A DNA stretch of 64,000 nucleotides, taken from NCBI RefSeq assembly GCF_016411865.1, contig NZ_JAEKJA010000010.1, positions 1 to 64,000 on the forward strand, read 5' to 3'. The position numbers were made by a program, and so were the translations under genes. This DNA comes from Acuticoccus mangrovi. GTDB lineage: Bacteria > Pseudomonadota > Alphaproteobacteria > Rhizobiales > Amorphaceae. The number at the start of each line of letters is the position of its first letter. The stretch's first letter is position 1. The notes beneath the pieces are model-generated. The model was not told where the DNA came from and ran no database searches. It saw only the letters and a list, made by a program, of their open reading frames with translations. Positions 2,258 through 23,677 of this stretch are shown in pieces.

Positions 2258-2263
2258 CCGACG

Positions 2264-5020: not shown

Positions 5021-5325
5021 CACCGCAACCCGCTCGGAGGGCGAACCCGCGCCACCGCCGGCTCGAACCGCCGCGTCGTCGCGGATGACAGGGTTTTGGA
5101 TTGTTGTTCTTTGTTCCGGCTCGGCGGCCTTCGATGCACGATCGTCGCGACTTCCAGCGCACCCGAGATCAACCAAAACCTAGAAAAACTCAATATAAGA
5201 TAACGGATTAAGCGGAATCTTGCAGCGCAGCGAATCTGCCTTGAATTGCACAAAGGGTATTATAAAGTGCGATTTATCCGGAAACGGGCCGGCCTCGCCC
5301 CCGCCTGACCCAAAGGGAGATCGCC
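5021..5325. other. Intergenic region between the dehydrogenase operon and the amidotransferase operon
   Basis: About 300 bp without a gene. The first 130 bp are GC-rich; from about 5160 the sequence turns AT-rich, as expected of a promoter zone, with runs such as CAATATAAGATAACGG, and contains the operator-like inverted repeat at 5245-5273. A strong Shine-Dalgarno sequence, AAAGGGAG, lies at 5312-5319. I see no convincing terminator hairpin for the upstream operon. Confidence 0.6.
5245..5273. promoter_or_regulatory. Operator-like inverted repeat ATTGCAC-N15-GTGCGAT (site 1)
   Basis: Two heptamers in inverted orientation, ATTGCAC at 5245-5251 and GTGCGAT at 5267-5273, are separated by exactly 15 bp. 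The same arrangement occurs at 13264-13292 and 14558-14586. Flanking bases are also shared with the third site (TTG before the left arm, TAAA before the right). It overlaps a possible -10 element (TATTAT, 5259-5264). I infer a binding site of the GntR regulator encoded at 13366-14346. Confidence 0.65.
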
Positions 5326-5367
5326 ATCTCTACGCCGCCGAGGATTGCCGTCGTAGGCTCGCGCGCC

Positions 5368-6459
5368 ATGCCGGCCGATCATTGTCGGGCCGCTGCGGCC
5401 CTCTTGGGTGGCCTGCGGGCCGGTGGCGTTCGGGCGAAGAGTGACCGCATCGCCTCGGAGCTCGACGACAGCCTCGTCAAAGGCTCCCGCGAGTTCGTCA
5501 CCGCCGACGGCCGTCCGGCGCCCAACGGGGTCCATTGGCTGGAGCGCGTCGAGGGCGATGTGTGGACCGGCGGGGACGACCAGCCGGGCGCCGATATGCT
5601 GGTGGTCGAGGTCGCCCCCGGGGCGACGCCGCCCCGCGACGCCCTGGTGATCGAGGCTGCCGACATCCCCATCGCCACGGACGAGCACGGGCGGTCGCGC
5701 CTCGCGGGTTCGGTCGCCGGCGTGCCTGATGCGGAGATCGATACGGGCGACAAGAAGACCGGCGGGCGCCGGCTCAGCATCGGCGTGGTCGGCGAAGCCC
5801 CGCATCTTCGCTACATCAATCCCATCGTGATCGCGACGCTCGCCGACGCCGTCGACCGGGCGGGCGCCGTTTTGGACCTGCGCATCATTTCCTCGGCCGA
5901 GGCCGCCGGTGGGCTGCCTCGAGGGCTCGACGGGCTCGTGTTGCCGGGGGGCTCCGACATGTCCCAGGTCGAGCCTCAAATTCGAGTCGCCCAGGAGGCC
6001 TGGGAGCGGGATCTGCCGACCCTCGGGCTGTGCCTCGGGATGCAGGACATGGCGCTCGCCGCCATGCGTCGCGGGGGATGGGCGCAAGCGGTGCTCGAGG
6101 AGATCCACGGCCCGGGCGAGCAGCGCGGCTTCGTGCGCATGCGCACCCCGGACGGCGGCTTCCGCCAGCGACGCGGCGACGCGCTCCTGACGCCGGAGGC
6201 CGGCACCGGCCTCGCCGCGATCCTCGGTGGTGAGACGCGGGTGCGCATGCATCACAACTACAACCTCGCCCCCGATGCGCGTGAACCCATGGAAGCCGGC
6301 GGCTTCCGCGTCGTCGCTGTGCACGAGACGGGGGTCGCCGACGCCGCCGAAGATCCCACCCGGCGCTTCCATGTCGGCTTGCAGGGCCATCCCGAAACGG
6401 GGGCCTGCCCCCGCCTTCCGCGTCTGTGGGACGCCTTCATCGCCGCTGCGCTCGATTGA
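5368..6459 (+). CDS. Class I glutamine amidotransferase-like protein, start uncertain
   Basis: From the ATG at 5368 this is a 363-residue protein. Its C-terminal half (from about residue 133) is a class I glutamine amidotransferase domain resembling that of CTP synthase: nucleophile elbow LGLCLGMQ and the His-Glu pair in GLQGHPE. Such domains hydrolyse glutamine or gamma-glutamyl amides. The N-terminal 130 residues are unrecognised. The open frame continues upstream of the ATG through PPRIAVVGSRA, which looks like a first beta strand; a good ribosome site (AAAGGGAG) is 6 bp before an ATC codon at 5326, so the true start may be non-canonical. First gene of the second amino acid ABC operon. Confidence 0.78.
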   Translation: MPADHCRAAAALLGGLRAGGVRAKSDRIASELDDSLVKGSREFVTADGRPAPNGVHWLERVEGDVWTGGDDQPGADMLVVEVAPGATPPRDALVIEAADIPIATDEHGRSRLAGSVAGVPDAEIDTGDKKTGGRRLSIGVVGEAPHLRYINPIVIATLADAVDRAGAVLDLRIISSAEAAGGLPRGLDGLVLPGGSDMSQVEPQIRVAQEAWERDLPTLGLCLGMQDMALAAMRRGGWAQAVLEEIHGPGEQRGFVRMRTPDGGFRQRRGDALLTPEAGTGLAAILGGETRVRMHHNYNLAPDAREPMEAGGFRVVAVHETGVADAAEDPTRRFHVGLQGHPETGACPRLPRLWDAFIAAALD

Positions 6460-6532
6460 GCGCGGCGCCACGCCCTTCGTCTTCTCCCGCCAGGCCGGCT
6501 CGCCGCCGGGCAAGCCCCCAGAAAGGACCTCG

Positions 6533-7387
6533 ATGACCGTCTTCAAGCCCCTCTGTGCCATGGCGCTCGCCACCGCCATCTTCACCCTTCCCGCCGCCGC
6601 CGACGAGCTGAGCGACAAGGCGAAGTCCGGTGCCGCGCTCGCCGTCGGAACGGCCAACGAGGCGCCGTTCTCATCGATCGGCCCGGACGGTGCGCTGAAG
6701 GGTTCCGACATCGTGCTGCTCAACGCGGTGCTCGACGCGATGGGTGTCAGCGGCACCGAGGGCGTGCTGACCGAGTTCGGCGCGCTGATCCCGGGCCTCA
6801 AGGCGAACCGCTTCGACATCATCGCCGCGGGCCTCTACATCAGCCCTGATCGCTGCAAGCAGGTGGCCTTCGCCGAGCCGATCTTCGCCATCGGCAACAC
6901 CTTCATCGTGCCGGCGGGCAACCCGAAGAACCTCCACTCCTACGCCGACCTCGAGGCCGATCCGTCGCTGAAGGCGGGCCACACCATGGGTTCGCGCCTG
7001 CGCGGTGAGGCACTCGAGATGGGCGTGCCGGAAAGCCAGCTGGTGGCGCTGCCGGACGGTCCGGCGCTGATCGCGGCGGTGAAGTCCGGCCGGGTCGACG
7101 CCGCGCTCTATCCCGCCCTGTCGGCCCAGACCCTGATCGACGCCTCCAAGGACACCGCCATCGAGCGTGCCGATCCGTTCGAGACGCCGGTGATCAACGG
7201 CAAGCCCCGCGTGAGCTATGGGAGCTTCGCTTTCCGTCCCGAGGACAAAGAGTTCCTGACCACCTTCAACGCCGAGCTGAAGAAGATCCTCGCCTCGCCG
7301 GAATATCTCGAGATGGTGCGCCCCTTCGGCCTCACCGCAGCGGAGCTTCCCGGCAAGGTCACCACCGCCGAACTCTGCGGCGGCTGA
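6533..7387 (+). CDS. Polar amino acid ABC transporter substrate-binding protein
   Basis: A 284-residue periplasmic binding protein (SBP_bac_3 family). A Sec signal peptide ends at about residue 22 (FTLPAAADELSD). The mature part begins with the usual LAVGTANEAPFSSIGPDGALKGSDIVLLNA pattern split over residues 33-62, typical of ectoine/glutamine-type binders. The ATG at 6533 follows GAAAGGA-like sequence (6521-6527). A stem-loop follows the gene, then two permeases and an ATPase, forming a complete importer. The ligand is unknown; co-regulation with deacylase, aminotransferase and M24 genes suggests an N-modified amino acid. Confidence 0.9.
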   Translation: MTVFKPLCAMALATAIFTLPAAADELSDKAKSGAALAVGTANEAPFSSIGPDGALKGSDIVLLNAVLDAMGVSGTEGVLTEFGALIPGLKANRFDIIAAGLYISPDRCKQVAFAEPIFAIGNTFIVPAGNPKNLHSYADLEADPSLKAGHTMGSRLRGEALEMGVPESQLVALPDGPALIAAVKSGRVDAALYPALSAQTLIDASKDTAIERADPFETPVINGKPRVSYGSFAFRPEDKEFLTTFNAELKKILASPEYLEMVRPFGLTAAELPGKVTTAELCGG

Positions 7388-7411
7388 TCCGCTCGTCCGC
7401 GCCGCTGCGTC

Positions 7412-7435
7412 GCCGCTCCCCGCAACGGGGGCGGC
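7412..7435 (+). terminator. Stem-loop after the binding-protein gene
   Basis: GCCGCtCCCCG and CGGGGGCGGC can pair over ten base pairs with one bulged T and a three-base CAA loop. No T-run follows, so it is more likely an attenuator or a 3'-stabilising structure that lets the binding protein be made in excess over the permeases. Confidence 0.5.
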
Positions 7436-7520
7436 ACCCATCCGGGAGTGCGGCGCGGGCTGAAATCCGGCGGAGGCTCGCGCCTGCGCCGACCCACCGA
7501 GACACGATCGACGGGGCCGG

Positions 7521-8183
7521 ATGGACACGATCTGGAATTATCGCTGGTTGCTGCTGCAGGGTCTCGGTGTGACCGTGCAGGTGACGGTTCTTGCCGGACT
7601 GTTGGCGCTGGCGCTGGGCATCGCGACGGGGCTCGCCCGGCGCGGACCGCCGCTGATCGCCTGGCCGGTGCACATTTATGTCGAGGTGTTTCGCGGCACC
7701 TCGGCGCTGGTTCAGCTCTTCGTCTTGTTCTTCGTCCTGCCGGGGATGGGCTTGCGGCTCGACCCGATGACCTGCGGTGTGGTGGGGCTCGGCCTCTGCT
7801 ACGGCGCCTATTGCTCCGAGGTGGTGCGCGGCGCGCTGAACAATTTTCCCCGCGCCCAGCGCGAAGCGGCGGTGGCACTGAACCTGACGGGGACACAGAC
7901 CCTCACCCGCGTGGTCCTGCCGCAAGCGCTTCTGGTGATGCTGCCACAGCTCGGCAACCTGATGGTGGAGTTGTTGAAGGCGAGCTCGCTCGTCTCGCTG
8001 ATCACCCTCGCCGACCTCACCTTCCAGGCGCGCAGCATCATGCGGCTGACCTTGCACACGGTCGAGGCGATGTCGGTGCTCCTGGTCGCCTATTTCGTGT
8101 TGGCGCAGCTCATCAGCTTCGGCGCCCGGGCGCTCGAGGCGCGGCTCGGCGGGGCCTGGCGCGGCCGGACGGAGGAGCGCTGA
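7521..8183 (+). CDS. Polar amino acid ABC transporter permease (EhuC-like)
   Basis: A 220-residue membrane protein of the HisQM family with about five membrane spans. The EAA loop is at about residues 114-135 (REAAVALNLTGTQTLTRVVL). It is the first of a tandem permease pair, 133 bp after the binding protein and three bases before the second permease, so the two should form the heterodimeric channel. The N-terminal MDTIWNYRWLLLQGLGVT resembles ectoine/hydroxyectoine-type EhuC permeases, but the ligand is not established. Confidence 0.9.
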   Translation: MDTIWNYRWLLLQGLGVTVQVTVLAGLLALALGIATGLARRGPPLIAWPVHIYVEVFRGTSALVQLFVLFFVLPGMGLRLDPMTCGVVGLGLCYGAYCSEVVRGALNNFPRAQREAAVALNLTGTQTLTRVVLPQALLVMLPQLGNLMVELLKASSLVSLITLADLTFQARSIMRLTLHTVEAMSVLLVAYFVLAQLISFGARALEARLGGAWRGRTEER

Positions 8184-8186
8184 GCC

Positions 8187-8852
8187 ATGGAGTTCTCGTT
8201 CGCCTTCGCCCTCGAGATCCTGCCCAAGCTCCTGCGTGGCGCGGTGGTGACCATCGAGGCGACGCTCGTCGGCTTTCTCCTCGCGATCCTCGTCGGGGCG
8301 GGGTTGACGGCGCTGCGCCGCGGAACGCCCCGTCTGGTGTCGGGGGTCACGCGCTGGGTGATGGAGTTCCTGCGCTCCACGCCGCTCCTGGTGAAGGCGT
8401 ATTTCCTCTATTTCGCGCTGCCCGATTTCGGGCTGACGATGGCCCCCTTCGTCGCCGGTGTCGTGGCGCTGGGGCTCCACCACGGGGCCTTCGCATCGGA
8501 AATCATGCGGGCTGGGCTCGACAGCGTGCCGCGCAGCCAGCGCGAGGCCGCCATCGCCCTCAACCTGCCCGAAGGCGCCTGGCGCACCCGTATTCTGATC
8601 CCCCAGGCGGCGCGACCGGTGCTGCCGGGGTTCGGCAACCTCTTCATCTCCATGCTCAAGGACACGCCCGTGCTCTATTCCATTTCCCTCGCGGAGATGA
8701 TGTTCGTGGCCAATGAGATCGGTTCGCTCCAGTTCCGCTACAACGAAGCCTATATCGTCGTCGCACTCATCTACCTGGTGTTCAGCCTGTTGGGCGCCGT
8801 CGGTGTGCGCCTGTTGGAGCGTCGCATGACGCTGCCGGGGAGCCGGCCGTGA
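8187..8852 (+). CDS. Polar amino acid ABC transporter permease (EhuD-like)
   Basis: A 221-residue permease partner of the preceding gene, with five or so hydrophobic segments and an EAA loop at residues 116-135 (REAAIALNLPEGAWRTRILI). The ATG at 8187 lies three bases after the previous stop. Its end overlaps the GTG start of the ATPase by four bases, showing tight coupling of all transporter subunits. Confidence 0.91.
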   Translation: MEFSFAFALEILPKLLRGAVVTIEATLVGFLLAILVGAGLTALRRGTPRLVSGVTRWVMEFLRSTPLLVKAYFLYFALPDFGLTMAPFVAGVVALGLHHGAFASEIMRAGLDSVPRSQREAAIALNLPEGAWRTRILIPQAARPVLPGFGNLFISMLKDTPVLYSISLAEMMFVANEIGSLQFRYNEAYIVVALIYLVFSLLGAVGVRLLERRMTLPGSRP

Positions 8853-9637
8853 GCGCAACCGCCACCGACGCGCCCGCGGTCCGCTTCGCCGCCGCCTGCA
8901 AGAGCTTCGGCGACACGCGGGTGCTCGATCGGTTCGACCTCGACATCCCCCGCGGTGAGAAGACGGTGATCATCGGGCCCAGCGGGTCGGGCAAGTCGAC
9001 GTTGCTGCGCATCCTGATGACGCTCGAAGGGATCGAATCCGGCCGGGTGGAGATCTGCGGCGAGACGTTGACCGACCGGTTCGACGGCGTCGAGCGTGCC
9101 CCGCGCGGTCGTGGCCGGCTGCGCAAGATCCGCGGCCACGTCGGCATGGTGTTCCAGCAGTTCAATCTTTTTCCGCACATGAGTGCGCTCGAGAACGTCG
9201 CCTGCGGGCCGCGCCTCTCGCTGCGTCGTTCGCGGGTCGAGGCGGAGGCGGAGGCCGAAGCGTTGCTGCGCCGGGTCGGGCTCGGCGACAAGCTGGGCTC
9301 CTACCCGCTGCAGCTCTCCGGCGGGCAGCAGCAGCGTGTCGCCATCGCCCGCGCCATGGCCCTGCGGCCGGAAGTGATGCTGTTCGACGAGGTGACCTCG
9401 GCGCTCGACCCCGAGCTGATCGGCGAGGTGCTCGCGGTGATGCGCGAGCTCGCGTCGGAAACCTCACTGACGATGCTGGTGGTCACCCACCAGATGGGTG
9501 TCGCACGGGCGCTCGCCGATCGGGTCTGTTTCCTCGAGAACGGCCGCCTCGTCGAGCAGGGGCCGCCCGAACAGGTGCTGGACGCGCCCGAGAACCCGCG
9601 CACCCGCGAATTCCTGCACGCCCTGAACCTCGCCTGA
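8849..9637 (+). CDS. Polar amino acid ABC transporter ATP-binding protein
   Basis: A 262-residue ABC ATPase: Walker A GPSGSGKS (about residues 45-52), Q-loop FQQFNLFPHM, signature LSGGQQQRVAIARA, Walker B VMLFDEVTSALD and H-loop THQM. It starts with GTG overlapping the permease stop. An insertion of about 14 residues (around VERAPRGRGRLRKIRG) before the Q-loop is characteristic of ectoine-type EhuA ATPases. It completes the second polar amino acid importer and ends the operon. Confidence 0.94.
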   Translation: MSATATDAPAVRFAAACKSFGDTRVLDRFDLDIPRGEKTVIIGPSGSGKSTLLRILMTLEGIESGRVEICGETLTDRFDGVERAPRGRGRLRKIRGHVGMVFQQFNLFPHMSALENVACGPRLSLRRSRVEAEAEAEALLRRVGLGDKLGSYPLQLSGGQQQRVAIARAMALRPEVMLFDEVTSALDPELIGEVLAVMRELASETSLTMLVVTHQMGVARALADRVCFLENGRLVEQGPPEQVLDAPENPRTREFLHALNLA

Positions 9638-9647
9638 GCTTGTCGGT

Positions 9648-9668
9648 GCGGGGGCCGAAGCCCCCCGC
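9648..9668. terminator. Bidirectional terminator-like hairpin between convergent genes
   Basis: GCGGGGG (9648-9654) and CCCCCGC (9662-9668) form a seven-base-pair GC stem around a CCGAAGC loop. It sits in the 32-bp gap between the convergent ATPase and 2-hydroxyacid dehydrogenase genes. No T-run is present on either side. Confidence 0.5.
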
Positions 9669-9669
9669 G

Positions 9670-10611
9670 TCAGTAGCCGCGGGTGCGGTCGACGAGGGCG
9701 GGAATCTCGCCGGTTTCGAAATAGTGGCGCACGTTGCCCGCGGCGATGGCGGCGGCGCTCGCCTTGTGGGTCGGCGCCGAGATGTGGGGCAGCACCGTCA
9801 CCGAGGGATGGCGCCAGAGCGGATCGTCGGCCGGCAGGGGCTCGACTGCGAAGACGTCGAGCACGGCATGGCCGAGCCGCCCGTCGCTCAGCCGCTCGGC
9901 GAGGGCGGCGACGTCCACCACCGGACCACGGCCGAAATTGATGAGCCCGGCGCCCTTGGGCAGCTTGTCCAGCGCTTCGGCGCCGAGAAGGCCGCGGGTC
10001 TCGGGCGTCAGGGGCAGAAGGCTGACGGCGATCTCGGCCCGGGACAGGATTTCCGCAAGGCCCTCGGGCCCGTGGAAGGTCTCGACGCCCTCCATCTCCG
10101 TCGGGGTGCGGGTCCAGCCCATCACCGGGAAATCCTGGGCGAGGAGGGCGCGGGCGGCGGCACGGCCGAGATGGCCGAGGCCGAGGATGGCGATCGGGCG
10201 CTCCTGTGCGAGGCGCATCGGGCGGGGCGACCACTCGACCCGGGCCTGGGCCGCGGCATAGTGGGGCATGTCGCGGTGGAGATAGAGGGTCCAGGCGAGC
10301 ACCGCCTCGGCCATGCTCAGGGCGAGCTGCGGGTCGACGAGGCGCACCACCTTGAGGCTTTCGGGCAGCTCGGCGACGATCCGCTCCACCCCGGCCCAGA
10401 GGCTCTGCACCCATTCGAGGGCCGGCAGCTCGGCGAGTTCCGCCGGCTCCGGGTTGGCGACGACGGCGACGCGGGCGGCGGCCCGCTCGGCCGCGGTCGT
10501 CTCGGCGAAGGGGACGATGCGCGCTTCGGGCAAGGCGGTGCGCAGGGCCGCGAGCCACTCCGGCGTGACCTCGCGCGCGACGAAGGGGATGACGGGCACA
10601 GTCGCGGTCAC
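9670..10611 (-). CDS. NAD(P)-dependent D-2-hydroxyacid dehydrogenase (GhrA-like)
   Basis: A 313-residue member of the glyoxylate/hydroxypyruvate reductase family. It shows the nucleotide motif GLGHLGRAAA (about residues 138-147), the substrate arginine in NFGRGPVVD and the catalytic histidine in LPHISAPTHK. These enzymes reduce 2-oxo acids to D-2-hydroxy acids. The GTG start at 10611 is chosen over upstream frames because a GGAG sequence lies nine bases before it. It is downstream of the deacylase and aminotransferase genes on the same strand and could reduce the 2-oxo acid made by the aminotransferase. Confidence 0.85.
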   Translation of the reverse strand: MTATVPVIPFVAREVTPEWLAALRTALPEARIVPFAETTAAERAAARVAVVANPEPAELAELPALEWVQSLWAGVERIVAELPESLKVVRLVDPQLALSMAEAVLAWTLYLHRDMPHYAAAQARVEWSPRPMRLAQERPIAILGLGHLGRAAARALLAQDFPVMGWTRTPTEMEGVETFHGPEGLAEILSRAEIAVSLLPLTPETRGLLGAEALDKLPKGAGLINFGRGPVVDVAALAERLSDGRLGHAVLDVFAVEPLPADDPLWRHPSVTVLPHISAPTHKASAAAIAAGNVRHYFETGEIPALVDRTRGY

Positions 10612-10810
10612 GATACGGAACTCCGTTGGATGGGATTGGGGTTCGCCCCGGTGGCGGGACGGTTCGGCGAGGGGGGCGAGACCGTGATGGCCCACCCACC
10701 CGGTAGGAGGCTCTCGACGGCTCTGGCGGTGCGGGCGCCGTCGAGGCCATGGCCGTGCCGGGTGCGGGGAAGGGTGGGCATCACGGTCTCTTGTGGTGTG
10801 CCGAGCGGGA

Positions 10811-11998
10811 TCAGGCCCGCGGCATCATTTCGAGAACGACGTCGGCGTAGATCCGGGCGGAGGCCTCGAACTCGTCGATGGGCACGAACTCGTCCGGCTT
10901 GTGGGCGACGCCGATGGAGCCTGGGCCGATGACGATCCCCTGCGCGCCGAGGGTGCGGAAGTGGACGAGGTCGCAGGCGCCCGAGAAGCCGAGGGGGGCG
11001 TCGTCCTCGCCCGCGCCGTGGCGGCGCCCGGCGGCGCGGCCGGCGGCGACGAGAGGGTGATCGGGCAGGGTTTCGGCCGCACCGCCCGTGGTGGGCGCGA
11101 AGCGGACGATCTCGGCCTCGACGCCGAGCTCCTCGCGGGCGGCGACGAGCAGGGCTTCGATCTCCGCCGTCGCCGACGCCTCGTCCTCGCCGGGGATCAT
11201 GCGGCGGTCGAGCATCAGCTCCATCTGGTCGGGCACCATGTTGTCGGCGAGGCCGGCGTTGGCGCGCGTGACGGTCAGGCTGCCGCCGCCCACCAAGGGA
11301 TGGGGCGGCCGGGCGGCGATCTCCTCGCCGAGCGCCTCGATGCGGGGCAGGAGCCGGGCGGTCTGGAAGATGGCGTTGACGCCGAGTTGGGGCGAGGCGG
11401 AATGGGCCGCCGTCCCCTTCACCCGCACGATCGGCCGCAAGCTGCCCTTGTGGGCGATGATGGTGCGGTTCGACGTCGGCTCGCCGATGATGGCGAGGTC
11501 GATCTTGGGCGCTTGCTCGGCGAGGCGGCGGGCGCCGGCGCTTCCGACCTCCTCGTCCGCCACGAAGACGCCGAGGAGGGTCCCGCTCCAGGCTTCGCGC
11601 TGGGCGGCGAGCAGGCGCAGTGCCTCGAGCATCGCCGCGAGCGGGCCTTTGGCGTCGCAGGCGCCGCGGGCGAAGAGCTTGCCGTCGGCTTCCGCGAGCG
11701 TGAGCGGCGGACGGCTCCAGCCTTCACCGACGGGAACCACGTCCATGTGGGTGTTGAAGGCGAAGACCGGCCCGGGCCCGTTCTCGAGCCGCGCCGCCAC
11801 GTTGACGCGGTCGGGGAGGCCATGGGCCTCGAACCGATCCAGCGTGACGGTGAAGCCGACGGCTTCGAGCTGGGCGGCGATGAATTCGGCGCAGGGCGCT
11901 TCGCGCCCCGGCGGGTTCTGGGTGTCGAAGGCCGTGAGGGTGGTGAGGTCCGCGATCATGCGGTCCAGGTTGGGGCGAAGATTGTCGCCAGCGTGCAT
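10811..11998 (-). CDS. M20 family deacylase, acetylornithine deacetylase (ArgE)-like
   Basis: A 395-residue zinc amidohydrolase. Metal-site motifs are in order: NTHMDVVPVG (about residue 84), RGACDAKGPLAAM (about 112) and ADEEVGSAGAR (about 146). The family removes acyl groups from N-acyl amino acids such as N-acetylornithine; N-acetyl-diaminobutyrate deacetylases in ectoine breakdown also belong here. It lies 28 bp after the aminotransferase gene and before the hydroxyacid dehydrogenase, so deacylation, transamination and reduction could be consecutive steps. As the arginine genes are absent, a catabolic role is more likely than arginine synthesis. Confidence 0.85.
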   Translation of the reverse strand: MHAGDNLRPNLDRMIADLTTLTAFDTQNPPGREAPCAEFIAAQLEAVGFTVTLDRFEAHGLPDRVNVAARLENGPGPVFAFNTHMDVVPVGEGWSRPPLTLAEADGKLFARGACDAKGPLAAMLEALRLLAAQREAWSGTLLGVFVADEEVGSAGARRLAEQAPKIDLAIIGEPTSNRTIIAHKGSLRPIVRVKGTAAHSASPQLGVNAIFQTARLLPRIEALGEEIAARPPHPLVGGGSLTVTRANAGLADNMVPDQMELMLDRRMIPGEDEASATAEIEALLVAAREELGVEAEIVRFAPTTGGAAETLPDHPLVAAGRAAGRRHGAGEDDAPLGFSGACDLVHFRTLGAQGIVIGPGSIGVAHKPDEFVPIDEFEASARIYADVVLEMMPRA

Positions 11999-12026
11999 TT
12001 TCTTACGACCTTTATACGATTCTTAG

Positions 12027-13244
12027 TCAGCCGAGCTGCTTGCAGGCATCGACGATCCCCTGCATCGCGCGGCGCAGGACGTCGGTATCCACGGCATAGG
12101 CGAGGCGCAGATAGGGGGAGGTGCCGAAGGCCGCACCCGGGATCAGGCCCACACCCGAAGCATCGAGGATCCAGGCGGCGACGTCGCCGTCGGTTTTGAT
12201 CACGTCGCTGTCGGGCCGCTTACGACCGATGAGGCCGGAGCAGTCGATGTAGGCGTAGAAGGCGCCCTGGGGCCGGCCACAGGCGAGGCCGGGGGCGCGC
12301 TCGATGGCCTCGAGCACGATGTGGCGGCGCTCGTCCAGCGTCGTCAGCCACTCGTCCATGAAGTCCCGCTCTTCGCGCAGCGCCGCCACGGCGGCGGCCT
12401 GGCTGATGGAGCTGGCATTGGTGGAGCTCTGGCTCTGCAGCGTCTCCATGGCCTTGATCAGCGGGGCCGGGCCGGCGGCGTAGCCGAGCCGCCAACCGGT
12501 CATCGAGAACGCCTTGGACACGCCGTTGATCACCACGCAGCGCGATTTCAGCGCGGGCTCGACCTCAGGCATGGTGGCGAAGGGCAGGCCGTCGTAGCGG
12601 ATGTGCTCGTAGATGTCGTCGCAGAGCACGAGCACGTCGGGGTAGGGCGCGAGGACGCGGGCGAGGGCGCTCAGCTCCTCGGCGGTCAGGATCGCGCCGG
12701 TGGGATTGTTGGGCGAGTTCAGCACCAGCCAGCGGCTCTTCGGGGTGAGGGCGGCGGCGAGCCGCTCGGGCGTCGGCTTCCAGTCCGAGGCGGCGTCGCA
12801 GGGCAGGATCACCGGCTCGCCGTCGGCAAGGCGCGCCATGTCGGGATAGCTGACCCAGTGCGGGGCCGGGATGATGACTTCGTCGCCGGGGCTGACCGTC
12901 GCCATCAGCGCGTCGAGGATGAGCGGTTTGGCGCCGGGGCCGGCGATGATCTCGTCCAGCGTGTAGTCGAGGCCGTTCTCGTTGTGCAGCTTGTCGCGGA
13001 TCGCCTCGCGCAGGACCTGAGTGCCGGCGACGGAGGTGTACTTCGTCTCGCCCCTTTCGATCGCATCATGGGCGGCACGGCGAACGTGGACGGGCGTATC
13101 GAAGTCGAGCTCCCCTTCGCCGAGATTGATCACCTCGCGCGCCTCGGCGGCGAGACGGCGCAGGCGTTGGGAAATCTCCGCCGTCGGTGAAGGCCGCAGC
13201 CGGCTCATCCGCGGTGCGAGGCGGAGCCTGGGGTGGTCGAGCAT
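12027..13244 (-). CDS. Class I/II PLP-dependent aminotransferase
   Basis: A 405-residue fold-type I aminotransferase related to AspC/AAT-I. The pyridoxal-phosphate lysine is in GVSKAFSMTGWRLGYAAGP (about residue 240), the NNPTGAILT motif is at about residue 177 and the invariant arginine is in PYLRLAYA near the C-terminus. It heads a three-gene minus-strand operon and is preceded by an operator-like site at 13264-13292, implying control by the adjacent GntR regulator. The amino donor is unknown. Confidence 0.9.
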   Translation of the reverse strand: MLDHPRLRLAPRMSRLRPSPTAEISQRLRRLAAEAREVINLGEGELDFDTPVHVRRAAHDAIERGETKYTSVAGTQVLREAIRDKLHNENGLDYTLDEIIAGPGAKPLILDALMATVSPGDEVIIPAPHWVSYPDMARLADGEPVILPCDAASDWKPTPERLAAALTPKSRWLVLNSPNNPTGAILTAEELSALARVLAPYPDVLVLCDDIYEHIRYDGLPFATMPEVEPALKSRCVVINGVSKAFSMTGWRLGYAAGPAPLIKAMETLQSQSSTNASSISQAAAVAALREERDFMDEWLTTLDERRHIVLEAIERAPGLACGRPQGAFYAYIDCSGLIGRKRPDSDVIKTDGDVAAWILDASGVGLIPGAAFGTSPYLRLAYAVDTDVLRRAMQGIVDACKQLG

Positions 13245-13263
13245 CGAGCATCCTCTGTTTAGG

Positions 13264-13292
13264 AATGCACTTAATCGATCAAAATATGCAAT
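13264..13292. promoter_or_regulatory. Operator-like inverted repeat AATGCAC-N15-ATGCAAT (site 2)
   Basis: The left heptamer AATGCAC (13264-13270) and right heptamer ATGCAAT (13286-13292) each differ by one base from the ATTGCAC/GTGCAAT arms of the other two sites and keep the 15-bp spacer exactly. It lies 20 bp upstream of the aminotransferase start, between it and the regulator gene, in an AT-rich patch. Confidence 0.55.
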
Positions 13293-13365
13293 GTAAAGCG
13301 AAGCCCGTCCCGGACGGGCGGTCTGGGGCGCCTTTGCGAGGGGGCGATCGGGTCGCGGCGTTCCC

Positions 13366-14346
13366 TCAGCCGCGGGCGGCGGAGGGCGGGGGGCTCGCCG
13401 ACCAGGGGTCCCCGGCCGTCGGCTGCGGGGTGCGGCTCGCCACCTCGTGCAGGCCGGCGTCGAGCGCCTTCGACAGGTGCCGGCGCAGCAGCGCTTCGGC
13501 CTCGTCCATGTCCTGGCTGTAGAGCGCGTCCATCACCGCCATGTGCTCCTTCATCCAGGCCACGGTGCGGGCGGTGTCGCGGTAGCCTTGATATTCGAGC
13601 GGGCGGCGCAGTCGGTTCTGCTGCTGGATCGCCTGGGTGAAGAAGGCGTTGCCGGAGAAGCCGACCAGCGTCTCGTGGAAGTTGGCGTCGAGCTCGAAGA
13701 GCTCCCAGCCCTGCACCTGCATGTTTTCGCCCTGCTCGAGCAGCCACAGATGGCGCCGCCGCATCCGGTCGAGCGCCAGAAGGTCCACCCGGAAGTCCGC
13801 GAGGCGTAGGGCGGCGGGCTCCAGGGTGAGGCGGAAATTGTAGCTGTCGCGCAGTGCGTCGCCGCTGTCGAGGGCGGGCATGAAGGTCCAGCCGTGGCCG
13901 CGATTCTTCGACACGACCCCTTCGTCGGCCATGCGCGACAGGGTCTTGATCAGCACCGCCCGGTTCACCCCATAGCGCTCCAGGAGAGCCGATTGGGTGA
14001 CCGAGGCCGGGATGAGACCCTCCACCCGCTCCCGGATCAGGCGCATGTAGAGATCGTCCTCCTGGGTGGCGGGCACGGCGAGGCGTGTGGTCTTCAGCTC
14101 GGCCCAACCCTTGCGCAGCGAGAAGCCGTGATTGGGGCGCGCCTCGACCACGCCCTTCTCGGCGAGCAGCAGCAGGGCGGCGCGCACCGGCGTGCGCGAG
14201 ACGCCGAATTCGCTCGCGAGCGCGATCTCGGCGAGGCGGTCGCCGGGGTCCATGCGTCGGTCGCGCACGATGTCGAGGATCTGATTGGAGAGCTGGTGAC
14301 GAACCTTGTCGCCCACGCCGCCGGCGCGCGCCTTGCCCGTTGTCAT
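13366..14346 (-). CDS. GntR-family regulator with two winged-helix domains and an FCD-like domain
   Basis: A 326-residue regulator. Residues 13-80 are a GntR winged helix (LAEIALASEFGVSRTPVRAA is the helix-turn-helix). A second winged-helix-like segment follows at about residues 95-150 (ALLERYGVNRAVLIKTLSRM, then GVVSKNRGHGWTF as the wing). Residues 165-300 form an all-helical FCD-like effector domain. Most FadR-type proteins have only one DNA-binding domain, about 230-250 residues in all, so this one is long. It is divergent from the M24 operon and next to the aminotransferase operon, and operator-like sites lie before both. Confidence 0.85.
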   Translation of the reverse strand: MTTGKARAGGVGDKVRHQLSNQILDIVRDRRMDPGDRLAEIALASEFGVSRTPVRAALLLLAEKGVVEARPNHGFSLRKGWAELKTTRLAVPATQEDDLYMRLIRERVEGLIPASVTQSALLERYGVNRAVLIKTLSRMADEGVVSKNRGHGWTFMPALDSGDALRDSYNFRLTLEPAALRLADFRVDLLALDRMRRRHLWLLEQGENMQVQGWELFELDANFHETLVGFSGNAFFTQAIQQQNRLRRPLEYQGYRDTARTVAWMKEHMAVMDALYSQDMDEAEALLRRHLSKALDAGLHEVASRTPQPTAGDPWSASPPPSAARG

Positions 14347-14557
14347 CCTCCGATCCTTCCCTTCATCCGCCCCGCTCCAACCATCCGCCGACCCGCCGCC
14401 GAGGGAACGCACCGTCGCCGATTATGCACTTTTTATTTCTTGTCTAGCGGTGAATGCGCGCCGGCGCGATACGCCGGTCACGCGAAATTCCCTCGCCATG
14501 ACGCGGGCCAAGGCCGGTCCAAGCGCGGGTTTGCCGTGCCGCAGCAGGTCGCCTTGC

Positions 14558-14586
14558 ATTGCACAAATAAAGACCTAAAGTGCAAT
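14558..14586. promoter_or_regulatory. Operator-like inverted repeat ATTGCAC-N15-GTGCAAT (site 3)
   Basis: Perfect heptamer arms, ATTGCAC at 14558-14564 and GTGCAAT at 14580-14586, with a 15-bp spacer. Arm centres are 22 bp apart, about two helical turns. It lies in the roughly 300-bp divergent region between the GntR regulator and the M24 hydrolase gene, 57 bp before the latter. The rest of the region holds an AT-rich patch (14420-14445) that may carry the regulator's own promoter. Confidence 0.65.
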
Positions 14587-14643: not shown

Positions 14644-15831
14644 GTGGCCCAGACCGACCTCGCCGACATCATGCGCGCCGTTCCCCAAGGCGCCGAGAGC
14701 GCCTTCCCCAAAGCCGAATACGACGCCCGCATCGCCGCTCTGCGCGCGTCCATGGCGGCGCGCGGGATGGATCTCATGATCACCTCGGGCCCGGAGAACA
14801 TCTTCTATCTCAGCGGCCAGCAGACCCCCGGCTACTATACCTTCCAGGCTCTGTGCGTGCCGATCGAGGGTGATCCGTTCCTGGTCTGCCGTGGTCTCGA
14901 GGCGATGAATGCCCGCCTCAACAGCTTCATCGGCGACATCACCGGCTACGCCGACGACGTCTCCCCCGCCGAGGCGCTCGCCGGGGCGCTGAAGGCGCGC
15001 GGCTGGATGGGCAAGAAGGTCGGTCTCGACAAGTCGGCCTGGTTCCTCACCGTCAACCTCTACGCCACCCTCGCCGACGCGCTGGGCGACACGCTCGACG
15101 CCTCGGGCATGGTGGAGCCGCTGCGCCGGGTGAAGTCGCCGCTCGAGATCGAGCAGCTGAAGGCCGCCGCCGCCGCCAACGACGCCGGCATGAAGGCCGG
15201 CCTCGAAGCGACCCGCGCCGGCTCTACCGAGAACGACGTCGCCGCGGCCATCATGCAGGCCTCCATCGCGGCGGGCTCGGAATATGTGGGCATGGCGCCG
15301 TTCGTGACCTCGGGCCCGCGCTCAGGCATCCCGCACACCACCTGGCGCCGGCGCAAGCTGATCCCGGGCGACGTCGCCGTGCTCGAGACCTCCGCCTGCT
15401 ACAACCGTTACCACGCCGCGCTCTTCCGTACCGTCTTCATCGGCGACGTGCCGGCCGACGCGCCGGGCATGTTCGACGTGTGCATGACGGGCCTCGACGC
15501 CGCCGTGTCCAAGCTCGCCCCCGGCAACACCTGCGCCGACGTCCACAACGCGGTGCAGAAGGTGATCGACGACGCGGGTCAGACCGAGGGCTACCGCAAG
15601 CGCACCGGCTACTCGATGGGCATCTCCTTCGCGCCGGACTGGGGCGAGGGCAACATCCTCAGCCTCTTCCGTGGCATCGACGTGCCGCTCGAGGCCGGCA
15701 TGGCCTTCCACGTGCCGATCACGCTGCGCTCCTACAACCGTTTCACCGTCGCCGTTTCCGAGACGGTGCTGGTGACGGAGAACGGCGGCGTGCCGCTGTC
15801 GACCCTGCCGCGCGATCTCGTGGTCGCCTGA
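14644..15831 (+). CDS. Creatinase/ectoine-hydrolase-type M24 protein (first copy)
   Basis: A 395-residue pita-bread-fold protein with a creatinase N-terminal domain (about residues 25-155) followed by an M24 domain. Positions that hold the two metal-binding aspartates in aminopeptidase P read LETSACYNRYHAALFRT, so the metal site is degenerate, as in creatinase and the ectoine hydrolase DoeA/EutD. GPRSGIPHTTW carries the histidine expected at the active site. The GTG at 14644 has AGGAG ten bases upstream; an ATG at 14671 is an alternative. It leads an operon with an AmaB-like hydrolase, SDR and MLE-type enzyme. Likely cleaves a C-N bond in a small solute. Confidence 0.8.
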   Translation: MAQTDLADIMRAVPQGAESAFPKAEYDARIAALRASMAARGMDLMITSGPENIFYLSGQQTPGYYTFQALCVPIEGDPFLVCRGLEAMNARLNSFIGDITGYADDVSPAEALAGALKARGWMGKKVGLDKSAWFLTVNLYATLADALGDTLDASGMVEPLRRVKSPLEIEQLKAAAAANDAGMKAGLEATRAGSTENDVAAAIMQASIAAGSEYVGMAPFVTSGPRSGIPHTTWRRRKLIPGDVAVLETSACYNRYHAALFRTVFIGDVPADAPGMFDVCMTGLDAAVSKLAPGNTCADVHNAVQKVIDDAGQTEGYRKRTGYSMGISFAPDWGEGNILSLFRGIDVPLEAGMAFHVPITLRSYNRFTVAVSETVLVTENGGVPLSTLPRDLVVA

Positions 15832-15835
15832 TCCG

Positions 15836-17104
15836 ATGCGTCCCAACCGTCCGCCCGAGCCCGATCACGCTCTCGCCGCCCGCCTGTTCGACATCCTCGC
15901 GAAAGAGACGGCCGACGTGGCCGGTGTCACCCGTGAGGCCTTCGGGCGGGGCGAGCAGTTCGCCCACGATCTCGTCGCCGAGACCGGCCGCGAGATCGGG
16001 TTGGAGGTGTCGACCGACGCCGGCGGCAACCTCTATCTGCGGCTGCCCGGTACGGGCGGGACGGGACGCATGATCCTCGCGGGCTCGCATCTCGACAGCG
16101 TGCCCATGGGGGGCAACTTCGACGGGGCGGCGGGGGTGCTCGCACCGCTCGCCGTCGCCGCGGGCTGGAAGAAGGCGGGCTTCGCGCTCGCCGACGACCT
16201 CGTGGTGGTGGCCCTGCGCGCCGAGGAGAGCAACTGGTTCCCGGTCTCCTATCCCGGCTCCAAGATGGCGCTCGGCCTCCTGCCGCCCGAAACCCTGGAG
16301 CTGAAGCGCTCCGACACCGGACGCACCCTGCGCGACCACATGGCCGAGCTCGGCTTCGATCCCGATGTGATCGCCGCCGGCACGCCCCAGGTGGACAAGA
16401 GCCGCATCCGCGCCTTCGTGGAGCTCCACATCGAGCAGGGGCCGACCCTCATCGGCGCGGACCTGCCGGCGGCGGTGGTCACCGGCATCCGCGGCTCGAT
16501 CCGCTATCGCGAGGCCCGGGTCTTCGGAACCTACGCCCATTCGGGCGCCACCCCGCGGGCGTTCCGCACCGACGCGGTGATCGGCGCGGCCGACCTCGTG
16601 ATGCGCCTCCAGGCCGACTGGCTGCGCCTCGAGGCGGAGGGGCGTGACCTCACCTTCACCGCCGGACAGTTCTTCACCGATCCCGCCCAGCACGCCTTTT
16701 CCAAGATCGCCGGCGAAGTGTTCGTTTCGCTCGATCTGCGTTCCAACGACCCGGCGCTTCTCGAAGAGCTGGGCCCGCTGCTCGAAGAGCGCTTCGCCGA
16801 GGTCGAGGCCGCCCACGGGGTGCGGATCGATCCCGGCCCGCGCACCGGCTCGACACCGGCGCTGATGGATCCGGAGCTGCGCGAAGCGTTCGGTTCGGCC
16901 ATGGAGGATCTCGACCTGCCGCGCTTCGAGATGGCGAGCGGCGCCGGCCACGATGCGGCGACCTTCGCCGGCGCCGGGGTGCCCTCGGTCATGCTCTTCG
17001 TGCGCAACGCCAACGGCAGCCACAACCCGGACGAGGCGATGGAGATGGACGACTTCGAGTGCGCCACCCGGCTTCTCGCCGACGGTCTGGCGCGCATCCG
17101 ATGA
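15836..17104 (+). CDS. Zn-dependent hydrolase, N-carbamoyl-L-amino acid hydrolase (AmaB/HyuC)-like
   Basis: A 422-residue M20-type amidase. Metal motifs are GSHLDSVPMGGNFDGAAGVL (His/Asp, about residues 82-101), EESNWFP (Glu pair, about 129) and a late HDA in GAGHDAATFAG. The dimerisation-domain stretch AHSGATPRAFRTDA is typical of N-carbamoyl-amino acid hydrolases and allantoate amidohydrolases, which release ammonia and CO2 from ureido compounds. It starts four bases after the M24 gene. In that context it could act on the product of the creatinase-like step, as carbamoyl hydrolysis follows ring or amidine opening in related pathways. Confidence 0.85.
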   Translation: MRPNRPPEPDHALAARLFDILAKETADVAGVTREAFGRGEQFAHDLVAETGREIGLEVSTDAGGNLYLRLPGTGGTGRMILAGSHLDSVPMGGNFDGAAGVLAPLAVAAGWKKAGFALADDLVVVALRAEESNWFPVSYPGSKMALGLLPPETLELKRSDTGRTLRDHMAELGFDPDVIAAGTPQVDKSRIRAFVELHIEQGPTLIGADLPAAVVTGIRGSIRYREARVFGTYAHSGATPRAFRTDAVIGAADLVMRLQADWLRLEAEGRDLTFTAGQFFTDPAQHAFSKIAGEVFVSLDLRSNDPALLEELGPLLEERFAEVEAAHGVRIDPGPRTGSTPALMDPELREAFGSAMEDLDLPRFEMASGAGHDAATFAGAGVPSVMLFVRNANGSHNPDEAMEMDDFECATRLLADGLARIR

Positions 17105-17904
17105 GCGGAACGACGCTCGATCTCGACCTCACCGGCCGGGCGGCTCTCGTCACCGCCGGCTCGGACGGGCTCGGGCTCGCCTGCGCGCGGCGCCTTGCCG
17201 AGGCGGGGGTGAAGGTGGCGATCTGCGGCCGCGATCCGGCGAAGCTCGAGGCGGCCGAGGCGAGCCTACGCGCCGCCGGTGCCCCCGATGCGCTCGCGCT
17301 CTGCGCCGATCTTACCGATGCGGCGGCGGTGGAGGGTCTCGTTCCGGCCGTCACCGAACGTTTCGGCGCCCTCGACATCCTGGTCGTGAACTCCGGCCAC
17401 ATCGCCTATGGCGGACTGCGCACCCTGACCGACGCGCAGTGGCACGAGGCGTTCAACCTCCTTCTGATGAGCGCCGTGCGCCTCTCCCGCGCCGCCATCC
17501 CGGCGATGCAGGCCACCGGCGGCGGGGACATGGTGTTCCTGACCTCCGCGACGCTGCAGCAGGCGGCGCCGCACCTGTTGCTCTCCTCGGTGTTCCGGCT
17601 GGGGGTCGCGAGCCTTGCGAAGTCGCTCTCCCACGACCTCGCCCCCGACGGCATCCGGGTGAACACCGTCGCGCCCGGCTATTTCGACACCGGCCGCGTG
17701 CGCGCGCGCATCGACGAGAAGGTGGCGACGGGCCTTTCCCGCCCCGAGGCCGCACTGGAGGTCGCCGGCGAGGCGCCCATGGGCCGCATCGGCGAGGCGG
17801 ACGAACTCGCCGAGGTGGTGGCTTTCGTCATCGGCGGTCGGGCGCGCTTCCTCAACGGCGCCAGCATCACCATCGACGGCGCCAAGGGCCGCACGGTCCT
17901 TTGA
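17101..17904 (+). CDS. Short-chain dehydrogenase/reductase
   Basis: A 267-residue SDR. The cofactor segment is AALVTAGSDGLGLACARRLA (residues 13-32) with the glycine pattern written AGSDGLG. The usual catalytic Tyr-x3-Lys is not evident: the corresponding stretch reads LLLSSVFRLGVASLAKSL, with F where Tyr is expected, while the upstream Ser lies in FLTSATLQQ. It may therefore be a reduced-activity or atypical SDR. The ATG at 17101 overlaps the preceding stop (ATGA), so it is in the M24 operon. Confidence 0.8.
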   Translation: MSGTTLDLDLTGRAALVTAGSDGLGLACARRLAEAGVKVAICGRDPAKLEAAEASLRAAGAPDALALCADLTDAAAVEGLVPAVTERFGALDILVVNSGHIAYGGLRTLTDAQWHEAFNLLLMSAVRLSRAAIPAMQATGGGDMVFLTSATLQQAAPHLLLSSVFRLGVASLAKSLSHDLAPDGIRVNTVAPGYFDTGRVRARIDEKVATGLSRPEAALEVAGEAPMGRIGEADELAEVVAFVIGGRARFLNGASITIDGAKGRTVL

Positions 17905-17938: not shown

Positions 17939-19069
17939 ATGACCACCGCCCGTCTGCGCCTCCTCGCCGCCGATCTCGACTACCCCGATGACCTCGCCCT
18001 TCACACCGCCGCCTCCGGCCGGGTGCCGGCGCTCGCGGCGCGCTATCTGGAGATCCGACGCGAGGACGGGTTCCACGGCGTCGGCGAGGTGCGCGCCAAC
18101 GTCGCCTATCTCACCGGCCTCGACGAGGCGACCGCCACCGCCGCCATCGGTATCCTGTGCGAGCGGGTCGACTGGAGCGTTCCGGCCGAGGATCTTCTCG
18201 CCGCCTTCGACGCGGTCGCCGACGGGGCGCCGGCCACCGCCCGCGCGGTGGTGGAAAGCGCCATTCTCGACGGGCTCGCCCGCATGCGCGGCGTTCCGGT
18301 CGCGGCGCTTCTGGGGGGCGATTTCGTGCCGGCGCTCTCCTCCAACCAGTGCCTCTTCTGGGGGCCGCAGGAGCGCTTCGAGACTCTGGCGCGGCGCTAT
18401 CTCGACGAGGGTTTTCGCGAGATCAAGGTGCGCATCGCCATCGCCGATTTCGATCAGGACCTCGCTCGCCTGCGCCGATTGCGCGAGATTTGCGGGCCGA
18501 AGGTGCATGTGGCGGCCGACGCCAACGCGTCCTGGGGGGCGGAGGAGGCGGCGCGCAAGCTCGGCGCCCTCGCCGAGTTCGACCTCGCCTACGTGGAGCA
18601 GCCCACGACGAAGGGCGATTGGGTCGCCTTCGATCATGTTCTCGCCCGCGCCCCGATGCCCCTGATGCTCGACGAGAACCTCGCGACGGCGGACGATCTC
18701 GAGCGGTTGCTCGATCGCGCGGGACGAGGGTCGGGGCCGATGGGCCATCTGAAGATCGCCAAGATGGGCTCGCCCCGGGCGGTGACCGACGCGGCGCGGC
18801 GACTGAAGGCGGCGGGCATCGGCGTGATGATCGGCCAGATGAACGAAGGCGCGATGGCGACGGCCATCACCGCCCATTGCGCCATGGCCGCGCGCCCCGA
18901 TCACGCCGAGCTCTATGGCTGCTACGGCCTTCTGAACGACCCGGCCGCGGGGCTCGCCTACCGTGACGGGGCCCTGATCGCCCCCGAGGGGCCGGGCCTC
19001 GCGCTCACCTTCGACGCCGGGGCCTGCCGCGAGCTCTGGTCGCGCGAGGTTGCCGCTCCGACGGGGTGA
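17939..19069 (+). CDS. Mandelate racemase/muconate lactonizing enzyme family protein (first copy)
   Basis: A 376-residue enolase-superfamily enzyme. Metal ligands are in VAADANASW (about residue 198), YVEQP (about 221) and LMLDEN (about 244); the lysine of the sixth strand is in GHLKIAKMGS. The strand that usually carries the K-x-K base pair reads IKVRIA, so the second lysine is arginine. Such enzymes abstract an alpha proton next to a carboxylate to racemise, epimerise or dehydrate. It ends the M24 operon; a paralogous enzyme lies at 23678-24841. Confidence 0.85.
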   Translation: MTTARLRLLAADLDYPDDLALHTAASGRVPALAARYLEIRREDGFHGVGEVRANVAYLTGLDEATATAAIGILCERVDWSVPAEDLLAAFDAVADGAPATARAVVESAILDGLARMRGVPVAALLGGDFVPALSSNQCLFWGPQERFETLARRYLDEGFREIKVRIAIADFDQDLARLRRLREICGPKVHVAADANASWGAEEAARKLGALAEFDLAYVEQPTTKGDWVAFDHVLARAPMPLMLDENLATADDLERLLDRAGRGSGPMGHLKIAKMGSPRAVTDAARRLKAAGIGVMIGQMNEGAMATAITAHCAMAARPDHAELYGCYGLLNDPAAGLAYRDGALIAPEGPGLALTFDAGACRELWSREVAAPTG

Positions 19070-19549
19070 GCCGCGAAGCCGACACATCGCTCGGCCCGTT
19101 TGCGAGACGCGGGCGGGCGATGCGGTGCGCTGCCCTTCACGATCGAAGATGATCGTTCGGAGGGGCGAAGAAAGTTCATGCTGCAATGCAGCATTTCCCG
19201 TCGACAGACGATCATCGAACCCGCCCCCGAGCGGCCTCGGCCCGCCTCGACCCGCCGCCTCCAAGGTGCTGCCTCCGGGTGCCGCAAGCCCTCGCGACAA
19301 TAGCGGAGCAGTCGCTTGCGCCGCGAGGCTCGGGGATGGCCGATGCCTAAGAATGAGGCGAATTCAGAGGCATCCTGCACCCAGATTCAGCGTTGGCGCT
19401 AAATTGTTGTTTTTTGCTCCAAAAAAGCAATCTCTGCCTGGACAAGCCCATTCTCGTCTTCTTTACTGATCGGGCGAGGCGGCGCGCCGCCTTACCCGCA
19501 ACCCGGGTTTTAGTTCCCGAAACAGAGCGCTCGACGGAGGGCCAGTCCC
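19070..19549 (+). promoter_or_regulatory. Promoter region of the polyamine-type ABC operon with nested inverted repeats
   Basis: 480 bp without a gene. GATGATCGT (19148-19156) and ACGATCATC (19208-19216) form an inverted pair that encloses a second perfect pair, ATGCTGC-AAT-GCAGCAT (19178-19194). Nearer the gene, TTTTTTG-CTC-CAAAAAA (19410-19426) forms another small inverted repeat in an AT-rich tract. These could be operators or RNA folds. A Shine-Dalgarno (CGGAGGG) precedes the next ATG. None of the ATTGCAC-N15-GTGCAAT sites is seen here. Confidence 0.45.
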
Positions 19550-20629: not shown

Positions 20630-20646
20630 CCGGACCCTGCTGCGCC

Positions 20647-20680
20647 ACCGCGGGACCGGTTCGCCGGTCCCGCGGTTTTT
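20647..20680 (+). terminator. Intrinsic terminator or attenuator
   Basis: ACCGCGGGACCGG pairs perfectly with CCGGTCCCGCGGT over 13 bp around a TTCG tetraloop (20660-20663) and is followed by a T-run (20676-20680). It lies 18 bp after the binding-protein stop and about 190 bp before the ATPase start. Partial termination here would give more binding protein than membrane subunits. It is the best terminator in the window. Confidence 0.85.
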
Positions 20681-23672: not shown

Positions 23673-23677
23673 GCGCG

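Follow-up and report, generated by a model that had tools for sequence, protein, structure and literature searches.

Four candidate operators and a regulator with two predicted DNA-reading heads in an uptake-and-breakdown gene cluster of Acuticoccus mangrovi

The DNA stretch described here (the window) comprises the first 64,000 nucleotides of contig NZ_JAEKJA010000010.1 of Acuticoccus mangrovi. It contains four 29-bp sites, each in front of a different transcription unit, and a gene encoding a GntR protein of the FCD type, which is the putative regulator of all four units. The units encode two ATP-binding cassette (ABC) importers, one of them together with an amidotransferase, an aminotransferase/deacylase/dehydrogenase set and an M24/M20 hydrolase set, and together they would form one uptake-and-breakdown regulon. 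The initial annotation had proposed three operators for three units. Its sites are real, but the operators, like the units, number at least four, the site at 19403-19431 having been missed. On comparative evidence the regulon is well supported and larger than first noted: with operator 4 and the second importer operon it reaches about 12 kb beyond the range annotated earlier. Also new are the tandem winged helices of the regulator and a nested inner box in the orthologous operators. The operators and the domains of the regulator are given below; scores and ranks in the window are those of a matrix of orthologous sites, and distances run from the operator centre to the annotated start.

5245..5273, no strand: operator 1, ATTGCAC-N15-GTGCGAT, 1 mismatch, score 25.9 (rank 4); before the amidotransferase / EhuB-like ABC importer unit, 109 bp from the amidotransferase start
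13264..13292, no strand: operator 2, AATGCAC-N15-ATGCAAT, 2 mismatches, one per arm, score 28.9 (rank 3); 34 bp before the aminotransferase start
14558..14586, no strand: operator 3, perfect ATTGCAC-N15-GTGCAAT, 0 mismatches, score 33.6 (rank 1); between the divergent regulator and M24 genes, 72 bp before the M24 start
19403..19431, no strand: operator 4 (new), ATTGTTG-N15-AAGCAAT, score 31.6 (rank 2); 133 bp before the start (19550) of the second importer operon, which is that of its solute-binding protein (SBP)
13366..14346, minus strand: regulator of 326 amino acids, two tandem winged helices and FCD (Pfam, AlphaFold2 model)
14116..14316, minus strand: winged helix 1, residues 11-77, recognition helix 51-63 with R51
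13882..14064, minus strand: winged helix 2, residues 95-155, recognition helix 129-141 with R129
13438..13863, minus strand: FCD effector/dimerisation domain, six helices, residues 162-303

Exactly three sites in the window fit ATTGCAC-N15-GTGCAAT, namely operators 1 to 3, at the positions and with the limit of one mismatch per arm originally described. They were said to lie in AT-rich gaps, and the A+T content is indeed 66-72% in the sites and 33-45% in the surrounding 229 bp, compared with 30% in the window. In dinucleotide shuffles of the window the mean number of matches at three or fewer mismatches is 0.83. Because three matches were reached in 2 of the 100 shuffles, the evidence from the window alone is modest, and the case is carried by rarity in the genome and by conservation. 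In the whole genome (5.46 Mb) there are 38 places at three or fewer mismatches, of which 35 have three; the motif is its own reverse complement, so every place is listed on both strands. Operators 1 to 3 are the only places with fewer than three mismatches, and the motif is thus not common elsewhere. The control, the motif read backwards, gave 29 places.

Operator 4 was not found with the ATTGCAC motif because its arms diverge more from it. Loosening the arms to ATTGNNC-N15-GNNCAAT makes the search unspecific in this genome (30 places at one mismatch or none, control 3). A pattern composed with all four operators known, which is descriptive, has one mismatch in three of them and two in the operator at 5245, which ties with six other places (control 3). 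A profile of 32 orthologous sites, when run on the window without filters, gave six matches that correspond to exactly the four operators (E 0.027 to 6.3); in the whole genome it reached E<=10 only at 14558 (E 2.29). A lone stretch resembling a half-site, TTATGCACTTT, lies at 14421-14439, about 80 bp upstream of the regulator start; by eye, it has no evident partner at the right distance.

Relatives of the regulator were sought in 397 genomes of the order; 44 of them, counting that of the window, have matches at E<=1e-40. Named genomes, when scanned, yielded at least 79 loci, the best of a larger set. Among 99 loci annotated with tblastn, 31 contain relatives of the regulator, M24 and M20 genes of the window. 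These cluster loci occur, for example, in Ancylobacter, Mesorhizobium, Paraburkholderia and Rouxiella. Upstream of related genes beside regulator relatives, the motif is conserved in members of the alpha-, beta- and gamma-proteobacteria, as classed from their organism names, in agreement with the proposal of a shared operator. The upstream set consists of 124 merged regions (27.5 kb) from 29 loci. Loci L049 and L065 represent one and the same region, and long stretches are common to L063 and L064 and to L079 and L080; L064 and L065 were excluded from the upstream set, in which the related pair L079/L080 was retained, and L064, L065 and L080 were excluded from the de novo dyad search and from the held-out sites described below.

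In the upstream set ATTG-N21-CAAT occurs 23 times in 15 of the 29 loci; the other gaps from 0 to 40 average 0.93 occurrences and never exceed 4. TTGY-N19-RCAA occurs 40 times, and shuffling gave a mean of 1.88 and a maximum of 7 in 200 shuffles. The matrix was built from 34 of these 40 sites, none of them from the window, after four had been dropped (two overlapping decoys in L079/L080 and two sites in L069/L073) and two repeats merged; 32 of the 34 make up the profile used above. The two sites dropped from L069/L073 adjoin SBP genes, about 44-50 bp before them, and were later among the 22 sites held out; of these 22, L061 9807 has the same sequence as a training site. A search for 4-mer dyads de novo upstream of the regulator in 28 cluster loci placed TTGT-N19-ACAA first with 14; two unrelated pairs reached 13 and ATTG-N21-CAAT 12.

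The four operators are the four highest-scoring sites of the window, and the next site scores 12.6. The outer arms alone also put 14558, 19403, 13264 and 5245 on top (22.2, 17.8, 16.5 and 14.9; next 11.1). A counterpart of operator 4 is found in L039, the regulator of which is 57% identical: sites at 15006 and 15262 precede its copy of the second importer gene. When each locus is left out in turn, the best score is at least 20.9 in all 31 cluster loci, and the minimum remains 20.9 when the near-duplicates L049/L065 and L063/L064 are removed together. By comparison, the median best score is 8.4 in 65 non-cluster loci, and the maximum with a column-permuted matrix is 15.7. The separation is weaker with the outer arms only: the cluster minimum is exceeded by 6 of the 65 non-cluster loci and by 2 of 31 permuted controls.

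The sites are also linked to particular genes. In 30 of the 31 cluster loci the best site is within 400 bp of the start of a regulon-type gene, the exception being L052. Each site scoring at least 20 was assigned to the nearest start. Of the 21 assigned to an SBP, 20 are centred 24-72 bp before the start; for the aminotransferase the distance is 28-47 bp in 11 of 13, and for the regulator itself 4-39 bp in all 9. These starts were estimated from tblastn, and duplicate loci are included in the counts. Since the centres lie close before these starts, where a bound protein could block transcription, repression with autoregulation is suggested in several relatives, as in most FCD proteins.

The orthologous operator is composed of two inverted repeats on one dyad, a strong outer pair TTGY/RCAA and a weaker inner pair TTG-N3-CAA. 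In each half-operator one word thus occurs twice in the same orientation, with a period of 9 bp. The inner TG at positions 12-13, which on the opposite strand corresponds to CA at 17-18, is present in 33 of the 68 half-sites of the 34 orthologous sites, whereas shuffling of the spacer gave a mean of 3.6 and a maximum of 11 in 2000 shuffles, and six other start positions printed gave 2-9. In the 22 held-out sites, which were chosen by their outer arms only, TG stands at 12-13 in 23 of 44 half-sites and at most 4 times at other spacer positions.

The regulator contains a GntR domain (PF00392, 70.3 bits, cut-off 27) and an FCD domain (PF07729, 69.1 bits, cut-off 24.3), the latter with six helices in the model, as in the VanR type. 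Of the 20 proteins from the region that were scanned with Pfam, it alone has a DNA-binding family, in keeping with its designation as the only local regulator. At E<=1e-20 its only match in its own genome, which has 40 FCD domains, is itself. The roughly 90 residues between the GntR and FCD domains match other winged-helix models weakly; HTH_Crp_2 at residues 109-150, on winged helix 2, scores 25.6 bits, just below its cut-off of 27. GntR-family stretches number two at E 0.01 and one at 0.001. Among 54 aligned proteins, the window's included, all have GntR and FCD, and 46 have HTH_Crp_2 somewhere. The AlphaFold2 model made with the 54-row alignment (mean predicted local distance difference test 89.2, predicted template modelling score 0.76) shows two complete winged helices and the six-helix C-terminal domain. 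A standard FCD-GntR protein has one winged helix per chain. The regulator is therefore predicted, with good confidence in the second winged helix, to be an FCD-GntR protein with a duplicated head.

The arrangement suggests that the DNA-reading head was duplicated in tandem. Residues 43-79 align with residues 121-157 at an offset of 78, which was set by hand; R51 is present in all 54 proteins and the equivalent R129 in 49. Twelve solved sequences match at E<=0.001. Their best stretches cover winged helix 1, FCD or part of it, or, in 9jpj (residues 120-296), winged helix 2 with FCD, and in none of the 12 does the best stretch run across both winged helices. Because winged helix 2 is thus joined to FCD and no stretch spans both heads, winged helix 2 appears, from the alignments, to occupy the place of the single head of ordinary members, and winged helix 1 to be the extra one. 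The best Foldseek matches have the length of one-head GntR regulators, and the highest query TM-score among the 50 matches listed is 0.48. No description of a GntR regulator with two DNA-binding domains was found in a literature search that covered mostly titles and abstract openings and few subscription papers.

The genes of the proposed regulon are as follows.

5368..6459, plus strand: class-I glutamine amidotransferase-like protein (PF00117)
6530..7387, plus strand: EhuB-like SBP (TIGR02995, 242.9 bits, cut-off 190.9; closest solved sequence 2q88)
7521-8183 and 8187-8852, plus strand: two permeases of the same importer (translations read, tblastn to relatives)
8849-9637, plus strand: ATPase of the same importer (translations read, tblastn to relatives)
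9670..10695, minus strand: D-isomer 2-hydroxyacid dehydrogenase (Pfam)
10811..11998, minus strand: ArgE/DapE-type M20 deacylase (TIGR01910 above cut-off)
12027..13244, minus strand: class I/II aminotransferase (family profiles)
14644..15831, plus strand: M24 hydrolase, a relative of ectoine hydrolase DoeA that scores under the DoeA cut-offs (family profiles)
15836..17104, plus strand: M20 Zn-dependent hydrolase, carbamoylase type (family profiles)
17059..17904, plus strand: short-chain dehydrogenase (Pfam)
17939..19069, plus strand: enolase-superfamily protein, MR_MLE_C (Pfam)
19550..23672, plus strand: second ABC importer (SBP 19550-20629, ATPase 20873-22015, permeases 22012-22890 and 22884-23672)
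23669-24841, plus strand: second enolase-superfamily protein, likely in the second importer operon
24838-25767, plus strand: 309-residue protein without a Pfam match at E<=1e-4, likely in the same operon
25761-26936, plus strand: second M24 hydrolase, likely in the same operon

From its ATPase gene onward, neighbouring genes of the second importer operon overlap by 4-7 bp with the starts used, and the genes at 23669..26936 likely belong to it. The first SBP exceeds the cut-off for ectoine-binding proteins of the EhuB type, which makes its ligand a prediction. The closest solved relative of the first M24 protein is DoeA, but its scores are 306.1 bits with NF038259 (cut-off 575) and 203.4 with TIGR02993 (cut-off 613), below those for DoeA/EutD; the second M24 protein scores lower still (280.2 and 192.2). 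The DoeB/EutE deacetylase is absent from the 20 region proteins scanned with Pfam; no search aimed at it covered the remainder of the genome. To judge from these families, the substrate is perhaps an ectoine-like ring or an N-acylated amino acid, which would be opened by M24, deacylated by M20 and transaminated. As initially proposed, the whole regulon may serve a single substrate. No paper describing the gene cluster was found among the titles and abstract openings searched, which include few subscription papers.

In many relatives the core beside the regulator comprises the M24 protein, an enolase-superfamily protein, M20 and an ABC importer, often with the aminotransferase, and the SBP is about 30% identical. 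The amidotransferase and importer of the window (5368-9637) resemble a separate second importer of Ancylobacter gelatini (L066, 13315-19000), with identities of 58% for the SBP, 68% for the ATPase and 39% for the amidotransferase. The operators of this species outscore those of the window. The importer may have been exchanged while the operator still stands before the unit. Just upstream of operator 1, at 986-5020, lie genes for two DAO-type oxidoreductases and a protein resembling sarcosine oxidase alpha, all three flavoprotein-like. The matrix scan of the window gave no operator before them.

Beside distant relatives of the regulator, a footprint TTTTGT-N11-ACAAAA was observed in 10 loci, all from Bradyrhizobium (L087, L094-L097, L101, L105, L107, L110 and L111). 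It is near-identical sequence inside one genus and was not used as evidence; it may be another operator, used by proteins of this kind.

Taken together, the four sites are most probably operators of the adjacent two-headed regulator, which would jointly control the four units, binding as a dimer on four boxes and likely acting as a repressor; we put the probability of this reading at roughly 0.7. The four heads of one dimer would each occupy a box, the boxes being arranged on a single dyad with WTTGY...RCAAW outside and TTG-N3-CAA within. The strong outer TTGY box would be read by winged helix 1, and the weaker inner TTG box, 9 bp away, by winged helix 2, which adjoins the dimerising FCD; this assignment follows chain order only. 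The regulator would most likely repress by covering the promoter or start region, and binding of a small carboxylate by FCD would release it from the DNA. The arm centres, 22 bp apart, had been taken to indicate binding on one face of the helix, and the distance does fit about two turns; the presence of two winged helices changes how that spacing is read. The odds are about even that this protein represents a subfamily of FCD-GntR regulators in which the duplicated head is matched by duplicated boxes, a chain reading TTGY-N5-TTG with a 9-bp period and a dimer the four-box operator.

Several observations weigh against this reading. The inner box is weak in the window itself, where the four operators have TG at 12-13 in 1 of 8 half-sites, compared with about half in the orthologues. 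The AlphaFold2 model is a monomer, and the fit of two heads to a 9-bp repeat is outside its scope. Operators 3, 1 and 4 are farther from their starts than is usual in the orthologues. Eight of the 65 non-cluster loci score above the cluster minimum of 20.9. Four of these (L077, L050, L060 and L071) have regulators 42-48% identical to that of the window, and L077 and L071 have partial clusters; L126 (32%) and L089, L098 and L122 (37-38%) fit this picture less simply. When all 7-bp inverted repeats in the 124 upstream regions are counted by spacer without bias, no peak stands at 15 bp, with 91 repeats at six or more of seven pairs (other spacers up to 100) and 6 perfect ones (others up to 9); the signal is probably swamped by G+C-rich repeats. 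TTGNNC/GNNCAA in 20 whole loci likewise has 8 hits at a spacer of 15, 8 at 29 and 7 at 17, and the signal is set apart from noise only after the scan is restricted to upstream regions. The importer beside the regulator differs in relatives, so one substrate may not hold across genomes. Finally, none of the 9 other genomes of its own family matches the regulator at E<=1e-40 (best 1.1e-38, 31% identity), so that the comparative evidence for the regulon comes from more distant genomes. Close relatives thus lack the regulator or have a diverged form of it, and relatives at 42-58% identity are present elsewhere in the order, a hint that it may have been gained horizontally.

The same regulon and regulator could also operate with a single pair of winged helices reading the DNA, probably winged helix 1, the other pair being structural. 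The 22-bp spacing of the arms would then reflect a spread dimer, and the inner box a promoter or bending preference. The far greater strength of the outer boxes, the weak inner boxes of the window and the invariant SRTP-R signature of winged helix 1 (54 of 54, with winged helix 2 more variable) are all compatible with this, which is a possible though rather doubtful alternative: the inner TG-N3-CA is position-specific and symmetric on the same dyad, in the held-out sites too, as A+T-rich bending would not make it, and R129 is kept in 49 of 54 proteins. Two regulator dimers side by side, or a tetramer, on each operator would agree with the tetrameric FCD regulator known from PMC7797058. The same might apply to the additional, weaker half-sites that PMC4494728 reports at 7-12 nt from the middle of many GntR palindromes. 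In those, however, the central palindrome is strong and the extra box weak, the reverse of the order seen here. Both box pairs, moreover, share one dyad with a fixed 9-bp offset, and two heads per chain make a second dimer unnecessary, so that such an assembly is improbable.

It is very unlikely that another protein binds the sites, for instance a MocR-type ectoine regulator similar to EnuR, and that the GntR gene is a bystander. The EnuR consensus ATTGT-N6-ACAAT, as given in PMC8739950, has the same outer word, the importer has an EhuB-like SBP, and FCD domains number 40 in the genome. Against this, ATTGT and ACAAT are separated by 19 bp here rather than 6, the regulator alone has a DNA-binding family among the region proteins scanned, and the sites travel with its relatives across genomes, in several loci standing where the regulator gene itself begins. 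Chance palindromes in A+T-rich gaps, of which the 2 shuffles in 100 with three matches are a reminder, may practically be dismissed, being contradicted by the rarity in the whole genome and by conservation across families.

If the preferred reading of a two-headed regulator on nested boxes is true, it shows how a standard bacterial repressor can become more specific: its DNA-binding head is duplicated, and a nested repeat in the operator is retained to match. The match between protein and DNA would be testable by swaps of heads and boxes. The 29-bp motif would define the regulon of a catabolic cluster that is present in members of the alpha-, beta- and gamma-proteobacteria.

Among known systems, Atu1419 of Agrobacterium fabrum (6z74/6za3), a GntR regulator of the FCD (FadR/VanR) type, has in common with the regulator described here the GntR-type winged helix, the six-helix FCD and inverted-repeat operators, and its structures are among the best fold matches of the model. 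PMC7797058 describes it as a tetramer with one winged helix per chain and a 10-bp palindrome, whereas two winged helices per chain are predicted here and the operator has 29 bp with nested boxes. EnuR/EutR resembles the present system in the outer words ATTGT/ACAAT and in the neighbouring EhuB-like importer and M24 hydrolase. It differs in its C-terminal domain, which is of the MocR/GabR type and resembles a pyridoxal phosphate-dependent aminotransferase, where the regulator here has FCD, and in a consensus operator with a spacer of 6, the operator here having 29 bp.

The ectoine/hydroxyectoine clusters with DoeA, DoeB and EhuABCD are approached through the SBP, which scores above the NCBIfam cut-off, and through the M24 protein, which is closest to DoeA among solved proteins. 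The M24 scores are nevertheless well below the DoeA cut-offs; the deacylase is an M20 protein, whereas DoeB belongs to a family other than M20; and in many relatives an enolase-superfamily gene is part of the cluster. The operators of other GntR proteins usually have, with exceptions, a GT-N3-AC core according to PMC4494728, which likewise describes more than one box pair around a common centre. Its extra boxes are weaker than the core, while here the outer boxes are strong and the GT/AC spacings are 19 (outer) and about 1 (inner) instead of 3. The outer box TTGT fits the TKGT box that the same paper gives for operators of the FadR subfamily.

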